NCBI GenBank assembly: GCA_019359235.1
Contig: JAHHHT010000047.1
Span: forward strand, 1-52,878
DNA length: 52,878 nucleotides
Source of the DNA: Oscillatoria princeps RMCB-10
GTDB taxonomy: Bacteria > Cyanobacteriota > Cyanobacteriia > Cyanobacteriales > Oscillatoriaceae
Reading direction: 5' to 3'
A program made the position numbers and the translations under genes. Positions 4,412-8,551 of this stretch are shown piece after piece. Under the pieces are notes generated by a model, which was not told where the DNA came from, did not search any database, and worked only from the letters and a program-made list of their open reading frames with translations. Each line of letters starts with the position of its first letter. Position 1 is the first letter of the stretch.

Positions 4412-5611
4412 TCACGAATCCAGCAACTCCAAGAGCGCCTTGGCTAGATATTCATACTCCACCGGCGTGTTGTAAATCTGTGCGGAAATGCGAATCAGCC
4501 ACTGGGGGGCTGCCGGCCAGGCAGTAAGCCACACTTCAATCCCAAACTGGTCCAGCAAAATATCGTGAAGCGCCTCAGTGGAACCGTCGGGCAGAGGTAG
4601 AGATGCCATCGAGCCAATCATCTCATCCGGACAGGGCACCGGCACGCCCAGCTTGTCGCAAAGCATCTGTCTCGCCGCCAGGGCCATCGAGCGGTTTCTC
4701 TCCATCAATTCTGGCCAGCCGCCGGCCAGCAGGGAGCCCATGAATTTGACAGCCACCGGCACGCACAGGTATGCTGTGGGGTCATCTGTCCCCATCCAGT
4801 CGAATTCCAGCTGGAAGCGCGACCGGTCAGTGCGGGGGGAGTTGGCCCCGTGGCTGACTGTCAGGGGACGGATAGCCGATTGCTTGTCGCGCCGCACATA
4901 CAGGAAGGCTGCCCCTTTGGGGGCGCACAGCCATTTGTGGCAGTTGCCGGTGTAGTAAGTTGCGCCAATCTCGTGCAGGTTCAGGGGCAGCATGCCGGGC
5001 GCGTGGGCCCCGTCCACGAGGGTATCGACGCCCAGTCCTGCTAGCTGCTGGACAATCTGCCCGATGGGGAAAATCAGCGCCGTCTGGCTGACCACATGAT
5101 CCAGCAAAACCAGCCGCGTTTTCGGGGAAACTCGCTCCATCACTGCCTGGACAATCTGAGCCGGCGATTCCAGGGGAAAGGGCACCTGCGCTGTGATGAT
5201 GCGGGCACCGGCACGCTCGGCCACAAAATTCAGGGCGTTGCGGCAGGCGTTGTACTCCTGGTTGGTGGTCAGGATCTCTTCCCCGGGCTGAAAGTGCCCA
5301 TAAGCGAGCAGGGAGCGCAAGACGGCATTGACGCCGGTTGTGGCGTTGGGGACAAAGGCCAGCTCGGCGGGGTCAGCGCCGGCAAAGCGGGCCAGCTCGG
5401 TGCGAGCTTCATCGAGCAGGGGCTCGAACTCCCGCCCAAAAAAGCGCACCGGCTCTCGTTCCAGCTGTTCCCGCAAGCGCTGCTGGACTTCGAGCACCGG
5501 CAGGGGGCAGGCTCCAAATGAGCCGTGATTCAGATAAGTTACATTTCTGTCCAGCAACCAAAACTCAGCCCAGCTAGCTGGAGCGCTTTGCGATTCGGCG
5601 TTTTGATACAT
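4412..5611 (-). CDS. Class V PLP-dependent aminotransferase, isopenicillin-N epimerase-like
   Basis: A 399-residue protein of the usual length for class V aminotransferases of the isopenicillin-N epimerase (CefD)/cysteine desulfurase-like group. It opens with the family's LNHGSFGACP motif (residues 28-37). The cofactor region is intact: D200 and H203 in VDGAHAPGM, and the Schiff-base lysine K226 in NCHKWLCAPKG. In this fold the enzyme binds pyridoxal phosphate and acts on an amino acid in the cytosol; the CefD name reflects similarity only, and beta-lactam synthesis is not implied because no such genes are nearby. The ATG at 5611 is the natural start. The gene stands alone, downstream of the split tRNA-Asn gene on the same strand, with 130 bp of hairpin repeats between them. 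Substrate is unknown. Confidence 0.88.
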   Translation of the reverse strand: MYQNAESQSAPASWAEFWLLDRNVTYLNHGSFGACPLPVLEVQQRLREQLEREPVRFFGREFEPLLDEARTELARFAGADPAELAFVPNATTGVNAVLRSLLAYGHFQPGEEILTTNQEYNACRNALNFVAERAGARIITAQVPFPLESPAQIVQAVMERVSPKTRLVLLDHVVSQTALIFPIGQIVQQLAGLGVDTLVDGAHAPGMLPLNLHEIGATYYTGNCHKWLCAPKGAAFLYVRRDKQSAIRPLTVSHGANSPRTDRSRFQLEFDWMGTDDPTAYLCVPVAVKFMGSLLAGGWPELMERNRSMALAARQMLCDKLGVPVPCPDEMIGSMASLPLPDGSTEALHDILLDQFGIEVWLTAWPAAPQWLIRISAQIYNTPVEYEYLAKALLELLDS

Positions 5612-5744: not shown

Positions 5745-6091
5745 CTCCCCGGGCAAGATTCGAACTTGCGACCAATCGGTTACACCCTGTCCCAACGTTT
5801 CCGCTAGGGGTGGACTATCTCATCATCCCTTGTGGGATGTCGGGCGCTACTGGATTTATTGGATAGGCTCCTCATCCATAGTCTCTGCACCTTTCTGGCT
5901 ACCTGTGGGTTAACCACTGCCTTTCGCCAGACTTGGCTCAGGGTTCCCGCCACCCGAAGTGCTGCGGCTTCCTTGAGTTCACCCGATTTTCCACTACTCG
6001 TTACCGAGTAGCGCTGCTTGGGGAAGCTGCAAGCTTTATGGCCTGCATTGGTCCCTGACAGCCGACCGCTCTACCACTGAGCTACCGAGGA
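5745..6091 (-). tRNA. tRNA-Asn(GUU), split by a group I intron
   Basis: The two exons are 6091-6058 (34 nt) and 5782-5745 (38 nt). Joined, they make a 72-nt tRNA without encoded CCA. The acceptor stem TCCTCGG pairs with CCGGGGA, including one G-U pair. The D-arm is GCTC-AGTGGTA-GAGC. The anticodon stem GTCGG pairs with CCGAT, and the loop is CTGT|TAA, which gives anticodon GUU after U33. The variable loop has 5 nt, the T-arm is GCAAG-TTCGAAT-CTTGC, and the discriminator is G. The intron interrupts the anticodon between positions 35 and 36. Without the intron the sequence reads as an ordinary cyanobacterial tRNA-Asn, which is what identifies it. This charges asparagine for translation. Confidence 0.93.
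5783..6057 (-). ncRNA. Group I intron (tRNA-Leu/fMet type) in tRNA-Asn
   Basis: A 275-nt insertion with no reading frame. It follows a U at the 5' exon end and ends in G at 5783, the group I rules for both splice sites. Core elements seen on the minus strand: CCTGAGCCAAG (5942-5932), matching the conserved core of cyanobacterial tRNA introns; P7 halves GACTAT (in GCAGAGACTATGG, 5888-5876) and ATAGTC (in GATAGTCCA, 5819-5811), six perfect pairs; a hairpin CTACTCG-GTAA-CGAGTAG with a GNRA tetraloop near the 5' end; and CATCCC-ACAA-GGGATG before P7 3'. A guide pairing GGCUGU with GCAGCU or GCAGGCC could form P1. It should self-splice by the guanosine-initiated route, though activity is inferred. 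Confidence 0.9.
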
Positions 6092-6193
6092 TTGTGATTT
6101 TTATAATAACTACCTGCGGAGGAGTTTGGCAAGTACTTTGGGAAAAATTTTTCAAACTTTTTTTTCGGCTGCTGAGAGGGCCATTTTGGCGCT

Positions 6194-6745
6194 TCACCAG
6201 GGCCGGTTCATCCGCATTTGGGCCAAGCGCTGCTGGGCTTTGGGATCGAGAGAGCTAGCTAAAAAGCGACTGGGCGGTCGTTTGGAGGAGTGCTGTTTGC
6301 CTCTGACGCTGTGCTTTGTGGATTCTACTTCCGAGGCGAGCTGGTGTCCTGAGATCCATTCGGCTCCGTACCCGACGACGGTGAGTTGCTGGGCCCGGTC
6401 TGATGTGGCCACAATCAGCCGCTGCTGAGCGTGGGCCCGTTCGTAGCGAAAGACGGCGCAGGTTTTTTCTATATAGGTATCTGCGGTTTGCCCGAAGTCG
6501 GTGTAGTGGACGCAGAGGTGGCGGGTAATTTCTTCCTTGGTGCTGCGGGTGTCTTGATAGTGGGCGTCGAACACCAGGCGAGTGTCGTAGTCCTTAAAGG
6601 CGCTGTAGTTCACCAAAGTTTCGATCAATTCCCGTCTCGCGGCTTCCAGGCCATCTCGATCGCGGGTTTTTGTCAGGTATGGCCAGATTCCTATGATGTT
6701 GTAGCCGTCCACGAGCAGGACAGCGGGCGGTGAGGGGCGTAACAT
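6194..6745 (-). CDS. NYN-domain endoribonuclease, YacP/Rae1 family
   Basis: A 183-residue protein matching the NYN_YacP family over its first ~150 residues. The family's acidic motif is at the start (LLVDGYNIIG), with VFDAHY and a TSDRAQQ motif further in. The C-terminus ends in a basic tail. YacP/Rae1 of Firmicutes is a ribosome-associated mRNA endonuclease; cyanobacterial and plastid homologues are common but less studied, so RNA cleavage is inferred from family. It starts at ATG 6745 and ends about 100 bp upstream of the split tRNA-Asn on the same strand, so the two could share a transcript. It is one of three NYN-fold proteins in this window. Confidence 0.85.
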   Translation of the reverse strand: MLRPSPPAVLLVDGYNIIGIWPYLTKTRDRDGLEAARRELIETLVNYSAFKDYDTRLVFDAHYQDTRSTKEEITRHLCVHYTDFGQTADTYIEKTCAVFRYERAHAQQRLIVATSDRAQQLTVVGYGAEWISGHQLASEVESTKHSVRGKQHSSKRPPSRFLASSLDPKAQQRLAQMRMNRPW

Positions 6746-7069: not shown

Positions 7070-8551
7070 CTAGCTGGGCTCGACCCATCCGGGCATAGGG
7101 TGACGGAGTAAACTCAGGTCAAGGGTTTGCCCGCTGGGGTTGGGAGTGAGGTTAATCAGCGGGTCTGTATGTCCCGTCAGGGTGCGGCGAAGCGCTCCTG
7201 TCTGCAAGTCCCACAGCTTGATCGTCCTTTCGTTACTGCCGCTGGCGAGGGTTTGGCCATCATCTCTGATGGCCAGCGACCGGACTGTGCCGGCATGCCC
7301 CGCGAAGATATTTCTGCGCTCGCCGGTGTCCAGGTGCCAAATCTCGATGGTGCCGTCCTGAGAGCCACTGGCGAGGATTTGCCCATCAGGGCTGATGGCG
7401 ATGGCCACCACTGGGTCTGGATACACCGGCAGGGTTCGCAGCAACTTGCCGGTGTTTATATCCCATATTTTCAGTGTTTTGTCAATACTGCCGCTGGCGA
7501 GAATCTGGCTGTCGGGGCTAATGGCAAGGGGGCGAACCATGCCGGCATGGGCGGCGATGCGGCGCTCTTTCTCGCCGCCGGCTGGATGCCAAATTTTAAT
7601 CGTACCGTCATAGCCGCCGCTGATCAGGATATGCCCGTCGCAGCTAATGGCAATGGAACTGACGCCGCTGGAATGACCGGCGAGGGTGCCGAGCAACTCG
7701 CCGGTGCCGGAATGGGACAGGTGGAGCTTTTTTTCGATACTGCCACTGGCGAGGGAGTGCCCGCCAGAGCTGGTGGCGGCGGGATACAGCGACCAGCAAT
7801 GCCCCTTCAGCAGGTCGATCAGCTCGCTGTTGCCCAACTTCCACAGTTTAATGCTGCCGTCATAACTGCTGGAGGCGAGGGTTTGGCCATCGGCGCTGAG
7901 CGCGGCGGGATAGAGATAGGTTGACCCGCAGGTGACGGTGCGCAACCACTCGCGGGAGGTTTGCTGAGATTTGAGGGATTCCAGATAGCTGCGCAAACCG
8001 CCGCCATAGAGAAGGTCTGCGATTCCGAATGAAGCCGGAGCGCTGCTGGCTTCCACCTGGAGAGCCGGCAGAAAGCCCGCCAGGATGGCGCTGCACGCTT
8101 CTTGCGCCTCACTGATGTCTTCTGGGAGCAAAATGCAGACAACAGCGGCATTTTGCTTGACTTGTGAGGGGTGAGCCCGCCACCGAACTGAATCAATACT
8201 GCCGTGCGCTGTTTGGATTTGGATGCCGGCGGTTGAGTTTTCGGTGAGGGGAAAATCGACGCCGGTGTTGCTGTCAGGGCGGGTCACCAAAACGTCCAAG
8301 CAGGTGGCGAGCGCTTCTTCACCCAGCTGTTCGAGCAAGTGGTTGCGGATTATATCGCGGACTGGAGCGTTTTGCTCCGCTTCGGTGAGCTGCCGGCACT
8401 GGGAGCGAATTTGCTGCAACCGCTGACCTGAAATCACCATCAATTCACTGTGGCAACCGAGGGTTTGACAGCGCAGCAGATTTGCCGCACCCGACTTGAG
8501 CCGTTTGATGAAGTCAGCCTGTTGAGATTTCAGTGGGGTTGTCCAGTCCAT
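7070..8551 (-). CDS. WD40-repeat protein
   Basis: A 493-residue protein in two parts. Residues 1-205 form a helical N-terminal region with no domain I recognise, including a cysteine pair in LLRCQTLGCHSE. Residues 205-480 hold about six to seven WD40 repeats of roughly 42 residues, each ending in a variant of DGTIKIW or RTIKLWDL with the spacing GH-x-D typical of the fold. The second and third blades are worn (KKLHLSHSG). The repeats likely close a beta-propeller that serves as a protein-binding platform, probably in the cytosol since no signal peptide is visible. ATG 8551 is the start. No neighbour suggests its partner. WD40 proteins are unusually numerous in filamentous cyanobacteria. Confidence 0.88.
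   Translation of the reverse strand: MDWTTPLKSQQADFIKRLKSGAANLLRCQTLGCHSELMVISGQRLQQIRSQCRQLTEAEQNAPVRDIIRNHLLEQLGEEALATCLDVLVTRPDSNTGVDFPLTENSTAGIQIQTAHGSIDSVRWRAHPSQVKQNAAVVCILLPEDISEAQEACSAILAGFLPALQVEASSAPASFGIADLLYGGGLRSYLESLKSQQTSREWLRTVTCGSTYLYPAALSADGQTLASSSYDGSIKLWKLGNSELIDLLKGHCWSLYPAATSSGGHSLASGSIEKKLHLSHSGTGELLGTLAGHSSGVSSIAISCDGHILISGGYDGTIKIWHPAGGEKERRIAAHAGMVRPLAISPDSQILASGSIDKTLKIWDINTGKLLRTLPVYPDPVVAIAISPDGQILASGSQDGTIEIWHLDTGERRNIFAGHAGTVRSLAIRDDGQTLASGSNERTIKLWDLQTGALRRTLTGHTDPLINLTPNPSGQTLDLSLLRHPMPGWVEPS

Follow-up and report, generated by a model that had tools for sequence, protein, structure and literature searches.

In Oscillatoria princeps RMCB-10 a housekeeping tRNA-Asn(GUU) gene is, as we hold with high confidence, split by a group I ribozyme inserted after the second anticodon base, between positions 35 and 36. 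The intron is a member of a site-specific family probably spread by homing, whose copy here carries no endonuclease. On a wider scale, we are inclined to think, with distinctly less assurance, that this anticodon position serves, across bacterial phyla and phages, as a homing site that had escaped report, where group I introns of two architectures (one with a hairpin in J7/3, one lacking it) meet endonucleases of two families (LAGLIDADG, placed in J7/3, and HNH, placed in the 5′ leader), and where the decoding of all asparagine codons in several genomes would depend on a ribozyme.

The split gene and the fold of its intron

The gene lies on the reverse strand of the window, the whole stretch of 52,878 nucleotides that was analysed. 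Its parts and surroundings are:

4412..5611, reverse strand: class V aminotransferase, downstream neighbour of the split gene (PF00266, 2.1e-26; synteny)
5745..5782, reverse strand: tRNA-Asn(GUU) 3′ exon, 38 nt, starting at anticodon U36 (ARAGORN on joined exons)
5783..6057, reverse strand: group I intron, 275 nt (Rfam model RF00028; splice sites from exon joining)
5791..5808, reverse strand: P9 hairpin with GAAA loop, the weakest helix (81.3% of cells paired)
5851..5878, reverse strand: P7.1-like hairpin between P7 and P3 (J7/3), two-sided changes in 3/5 pairs in the comparison across introns
5879..5883, reverse strand: P7 5′ strand (3′ strand 5817-5813), GACUA/UAGUC, 5/5 pairs invariant and paired
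5980..5986, reverse strand: P3 5′ strand (3′ strand 5846-5840), 7/7 pairs invariant and paired
5994..6011, reverse strand: P2 hairpin with GUAA loop, two-sided changes in 3/7 pairs
6013..6017, reverse strand: internal guide sequence GCAGC, forming P1 with exon GCUGU (6062-6058), U.G at the 5′ splice site; invariant in 20/20 cyanobacterial introns
6058..6091, reverse strand: tRNA-Asn(GUU) 5′ exon, 34 nt, ending at anticodon U35 (ARAGORN on joined exons; conserved in relatives)
6103..6132, reverse strand: promoter-like site TTGCCA-18-TATTAT, 11 nt upstream of the tRNA gene, proposed from a 10/12 consensus match alone
6194..6745, reverse strand: YacP-like NYN domain protein, upstream neighbour (PF05991, 8.9e-45), kept in relatives with and without the intron

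With default settings ARAGORN calls no tRNA in the window, so that split genes may explain missing tRNA-Asn annotations; when introns are allowed, it returns a tRNA-SeC, a wrong call. Joined, exons 6091-6058 and 5782-5745 give a 72-nt cloverleaf recognized as tRNA-Asn(gtt). The anticodon loop CUGUUAA is restored by one joint alone, CUGU/UAACC, which places the insertion between anticodon bases 35 and 36. A preliminary description had proposed a tRNA-Asn(GUU) gene interrupted at exactly this point by a 275-nt group I intron, and the joined exons, the unique joint, the covariance model and covariation all bear it out. The intron aligns with the full length of RF00028 (model positions 1-253) at 66.3 bits, above the cut-off of 50 (E 1.1e-14), which answers the Rfam check then suggested. 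Also present are P7 GACUA/UAGUC, the GUAA loop of P2, the GAAA loop of P9, a 5′ splice-site U and a G as final intron base. P1 with its U.G and the final G recur in 20/20 cyanobacterial rows, the G being part of the search pattern for rows that came from the pattern scan. No open frame of at least 80 aa in the ORF list overlaps 5783-6057, and hence no endonuclease gene was found within the intron.

To see whether this fold is under selection, 19 further distinct cyanobacterial tRNA-Asn introns were aligned to that of the window, every row extending 10 nt into the 5′ exon and 6 nt into the 3′ exon, and a P1 to P9 pairing scheme was written by hand. These 20 rows come from a set of 26 distinct introns, from which the endonuclease-bearing L120 and L174 as well as four closely related sequences were omitted. 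Standard pairs occupy 96.3% of 1359 cells and two-sided changes occur in 19/68 pairs of the whole structure; a shift of the partners by 1-3 columns lowers these figures to 31.6-43.7% of cells and 0-5 pairs. Of five covariation measures, four lie above every one of 500 shuffles, and one, that of further pair types, reaches 35 where its shuffles average 37.4. The signal is strongest in P2, P6 and the J7/3 hairpin, while P1, P3 and P7, being invariant, give no evidence either way on pairing. A single A-C mismatch stands in P4 of the window copy and recurs in 3/19 other sequences. Judged from these aligned sequences, the intron fold is under selection, with pairing beyond chance.

The hairpin in J7/3 we call P7.1-like after a feature of subgroup IA introns. 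Its origin as a relic of a homing endonuclease gene was considered and judged unlikely, because the stem covaries and the motif recurs in Nitrospirota introns.

Splicing itself we infer from this anatomy and from the chemistry known for the family. In the precursor, the guide GCAGC would pair with exon GCUGU to form P1, with the U.G pair marking the cleavage point; a guanosine occupying P7 would cut after U35, which in turn would attack after the final G of the intron, and joining of the exons would yield the GUU anticodon. Without splicing, the split gene would give no usable tRNA-Asn.

Cyanobacterial distribution and dependence on splicing

The intron is sporadic within Cyanobacteriota. It is present in 7/60 genomes, the source genome included (G000, G002, G005, G008, G015, G038 and G039), and blastn matched it in 7/386 genomes, again with its own, drawn evenly from the phylum. 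The intron is not restricted to the source strain: the pattern scan found the split gene in at least 23 Cyanobacteriota records and in other phyla. The window is an entire contig of a 60-contig draft, a situation in which an assembly error or chimaera deserves consideration; that idea is refuted, its chance being practically nil, by 25 further distinct cyanobacterial sequences with a split tRNA-Asn, including the 99% identical L180. A 99% identical copy exists in Oscillatoria sp. PCC 10802 (G002), an independent assembly.

The NYN and aminotransferase genes flank tRNA-Asn at eight intron-bearing loci (L061, L062, L063, L067, L100, L174, L175 and L182; in L175 the NYN gene stands about 3.5 kb away). 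At the orthologous locus of L078-L081, which belong to the same family as the window, tRNA-Asn is uninterrupted, which implies gain or loss of the intron within the family.

An 898-nt version of the intron with a LAGLIDADG-type ORF occurs in G038, L120 and Argonema antarcticum (L174). Alignment places the ORF of G038 in the J7/3 region, and those of L120 and L174 stand at the corresponding place; PF03161 was found in the intron ORFs of G038 and L174. The tRNA-Arg(CCU) gene of the source genome (C36:70460-71455; L316 1195-2190) is also interrupted, by a group I-like intron scoring 23.3 bits, below the cut-off, which holds in its J7/3 a LAGLIDADG_2 gene 35% identical to that of G038. Cyanobacterial tRNA introns are thus not confined to Leu and fMet, the hosts named in the preliminary description.

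Three observations accompany these. Proteins related to the G038 endonuclease were found in 13/40 genomes searched, G038 and the source genome included. Group I introns in tRNA-Arg(CCU) extend across several cyanobacterial families (L263, L265, L270, L271, L275, L278, L279, L283, L285); their exons, like those of fMet introns, were read by eye since brute-force joined flanks gave ambiguous ARAGORN results. Finally, a sequence resembling a group I intron lies in G012 (C127:10443-10541, L230), outside any tRNA that was recognised; its J7/3 hairpin motif is of a comparable kind.

It had been suggested that all asparagine decoding would depend on the intron if this were the only tRNA-Asn gene. For the source genome (8.49 Mb, 60 contigs, 99.5% complete) the premise fails: an uninterrupted, divergent tRNA-Asn(GTT) lies at C29:117433-117509, inside an array of at least 19 tRNA genes (ARAGORN, 7-kb stretch C29:113500-120500, L033), and loss of splicing therefore need not kill the organism. 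The intron could then be a dead relic, asparagine being decoded by the array gene. A strict pattern for uninterrupted tRNA-Asn, applied to 20 genomes, those holding loci found earlier in this analysis, matched in nine. According to ARAGORN, seven of these copies are inside arrays (G000, G002, G008, G038, G363, G424, G425) and two are lone (G039 and the Clostridia genome G423). Eight genomes were searched with a looser pattern, which revealed one more array copy, in G162, and both a lone and an array copy in G003, the control that has no intron. Besides the source genome, seven split-gene cyanobacteria (G002, G008, G038, G162, G363, G424, G425) thus possess an array copy and G039 a lone one, all of which suits a relic. 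In G039, a one-contig genome also holding the split gene, this lone tRNA-Asn(GTT) is divergent and sits outside arrays (C1:5116492, L227).

Against a relic, compensatory changes keep the fold, the exons match those of relatives, and five other genomes with the split gene show no other tRNA-Asn copy. Neither pattern found an uninterrupted gene in G418 and G419, chromosome-level Nitrospirales records; in G005, G015 and G233 the strict pattern found none and the looser-pattern matches are not tRNAs according to ARAGORN. Three of these five genomes are drafts and the pattern can miss a divergent gene, but as the split gene is the sole tRNA-Asn detected in them, we infer that splicing must work there.

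A parallel from another cyanobacterium also speaks against a relic. In passages of a study of Anabaena sp. PCC 7120, a comparable tRNA array is described as silent under standard conditions, repressed by TrcR and active under translation stress, and a TrcR-related motif, TGTAGTAT, is given (PMC10272220). An exact TGTAGTAT stands upstream of the array of the source genome (L033 6356-6363), but this evidence is weak since, allowing up to one mismatch, five matches are seen against 2.2 expected, a number reached in 15/200 shuffles. We suppose that the split and the array tRNA-Asn genes probably differ in use, and consider a dead relic very unlikely.

The same site in other phyla and viral contigs

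A pattern scan, aimed at the 3′ half of tRNA-Asn with a G directly before it, retrieved at least 117 stretches in genome contigs and five in viral contigs. In at least 94 of the 122 loci listed, tRNA-Asn is split at the identical position, its 5′ half, ending CUGU, lying 183-898 nt upstream. Among the matches listed, the split loci belong to Bacillota (37), Cyanobacteriota (23), Patescibacteria-type genomes (12), Nitrospirota (8), Melainabacteria (3), Elusimicrobiota (1), Myxococcota (1), other Deltaproteobacteria (1), four further bacteria, three viral contigs and one MAG labelled Klebsiella pneumoniae (label as given). The 28 listed loci in which the patterns used did not find a 5′ exon were dropped; they include loci starting near the match, Elusimicrobia (L164 being an Rfam match), archaeal and viral loci, and seemingly uninterrupted tRNA genes such as L184, L213 and L218. 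In Patescibacteria, 4/379 genomes matched.

The guide, P7 5′ and P7 3′ motifs follow in order in 93/94 listed introns versus a mean of 0.45/94 after shuffling; in the remaining one, P7 reads GGCCAU/AUGGUC, complementary by eye. The Rfam cut-off is reached in 8/20 loci tested (L161, L164, L139, L122, L107, L131, L149, L123). The other 12 gave no group I match at this cut-off, clostridial and viral introns staying below it; a relaxed threshold, applied to seven of them, brought out one clostridial intron at 40.8 bits (E 1.7e-7), and six remained without a match. The group I nature of the clostridial and viral introns is therefore proposed on the basis of motifs and alignment, and since the clostridial inserts tested fall below the Rfam cut-off, such introns are easily missed. 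In many Clostridia MAGs (L111, L116, L118, L119, L121, L153, L176 and others) tRNA-Asn is interrupted at this position by roughly 215-251 nt, and the clostridial split gene is often near a 5S rRNA gene.

Eleven introns longer than 500 nt, from Patescibacteria, Melainabacteria, a Nitrospira, a Deltaproteobacterium and one further bacterium, contain ORFs of 112-142 aa, alike by eye, with frames opening in the first 15 nt. HNH PF01844 was detected in the four ORFs scanned (E 0.00015 to 0.0084), one of them above the curated cut-off. The tRNA-Asn intron family probably spreads by homing endonucleases, LAGLIDADG in J7/3 in some cyanobacteria and HNH in the 5′ leader elsewhere. The window copy, devoid of such a gene, is probably inherited vertically or moved in trans only.

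In three viral contigs (L216, L217 and L219) this tRNA-Asn site is occupied by a 183-nt group I-like intron, with P1, P3, P7, P8 and P9 elements visible by eye; L216 and L217 gave no Rfam group I match. Their assignment to phages rests on their presence in the IMG/VR collection and on the gene content of L216, namely six other tRNA genes, Hsp20 and phosphohydrolase genes with PHROG matches and, about 50 nt downstream of the split tRNA-Asn (7829-8083), a gene matching an HNH PHROG (E 1.9e-5). Searched by blastn against 50,697 phage records, the window gene and the viral gene found no match. A passage of a review states that all phage introns observed by 2014 were in protein genes (PMC3984707).

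Where the cyanobacterial intron came from was addressed with a tree of 73 introns and 200 columns, built with L120, L174 and many near-copies left out. Four of its rows carry the provisional label ‘nrd’. Fourteen cyanobacterial tRNA-Asn introns form one clade (92/99), and the cyanobacterial Leu, fMet and Arg introns a separate group (99/95). AU tests reject neither a single clade of all Asn introns (p 0.486) nor a grouping of the cyanobacterial Asn introns with those of Leu, fMet and Arg (p 0.534), and so favour neither one nor several origins; p is 0.104 for cyanobacterial Asn with Leu alone and 0.342 with Melainabacteria Asn introns.

One could imagine that a resident intron, for instance that of tRNA-Leu(UAA) or tRNA-Arg(CCU), was retargeted to this site, instead of an intron arriving from a different tRNA-Asn gene, an idea compatible with the test just given and with the relatedness of the LAGLIDADG genes of Asn and Arg introns, both located in J7/3. 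Yet identity reaches at best 66% with Nitrospirota and 69% with Deltaproteobacteria Asn introns (median or best 65-69%), compared with 47-52% (median or best) for the cyanobacterial Leu, fMet and Arg introns, and the J7/3 motif, near-identical in Nitrospirota Asn introns, is missing from Leu and fMet introns. For the resident tRNA-Leu intron in particular, identity and the missing hairpin weaken the case, although the AU tests do not reject it. Retargeting appears unlikely, then; anatomy and identity point to an origin of the intron toward Nitrospirota and Deltaproteobacteria.

Bacterial tRNA group I introns have so far been described for few tRNAs. An anticodon site common to distant phyla and viral contigs offers a clean system to study the movement of introns between phyla, as well as swaps of endonuclease genes between introns. 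It also raises the question of how cells whose sole tRNA-Asn depends on a ribozyme sustain translation.

Comparison with known tRNA introns

The tRNA-Leu(UAA) intron of cyanobacteria and plastids is likewise a group I ribozyme in the anticodon loop, and the source genome has it too (L001/L051, RF00028 82 bits). It is inserted after base 34 (exons of L051), whereas the tRNA-Asn intron follows base 35, and its J7/3 is short where the tRNA-Asn intron has the P7.1-like hairpin; identity between them is 51% or less. The window intron, by its host tRNA and insertion point, thus falls outside the tRNA-Leu(UAA) family. The cyanobacterial tRNA-fMet and tRNA-Arg(CCU) introns are also anticodon-loop group I introns, with hosts read by eye. 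The alignment with tRNA-Leu and tRNA-fMet introns proposed in the preliminary description was carried out: the five fMet introns compared are devoid of the J7/3 hairpin, as are those of Leu, and identity of fMet and Arg introns to the tRNA-Asn intron is at best 51-52%. The tRNA-Arg(CCU) intron of the source genome resembles some tRNA-Asn introns in carrying its LAGLIDADG_2 gene in J7/3. The window intron has a covarying hairpin in J7/3, the place of P7.1 in subgroup IA introns, and is by this element a candidate for that subgroup, whose definition takes in other peripheral elements as well.

Group I or putative group I introns are reported elsewhere in bacteria, in tRNA-Ile2(CAU) of Acidovorax and Burkholderia and in tRNA-Arg(TCT) and tRNA-Leu(TAA) of Beggiatoaceae (PMC8450103, PMC4853749); these concern other host tRNAs, and the passages concerned contain no bacterial tRNA-Asn case. 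The tRNAscan-SE 2.0 paper mentions fMet and Ile2 introns (PMC8450103). Mohanta et al. 2017 give Leu and fMet introns as known and claim others in Arg, Gly and Lys with inserts of 22-49 nt (PMC5733544), in our judgement too short for a group I core. Within the open-licence literature, as covered through titles, abstract openings and passages, no report of a group I intron in bacterial tRNA-Asn was found. The mechanism, a group I intron in a tRNA, is already known; what appear to be new are tRNA-Asn as the host, the precise insertion point, the wide range over which it is occupied and the two types of endonuclease associated with it.
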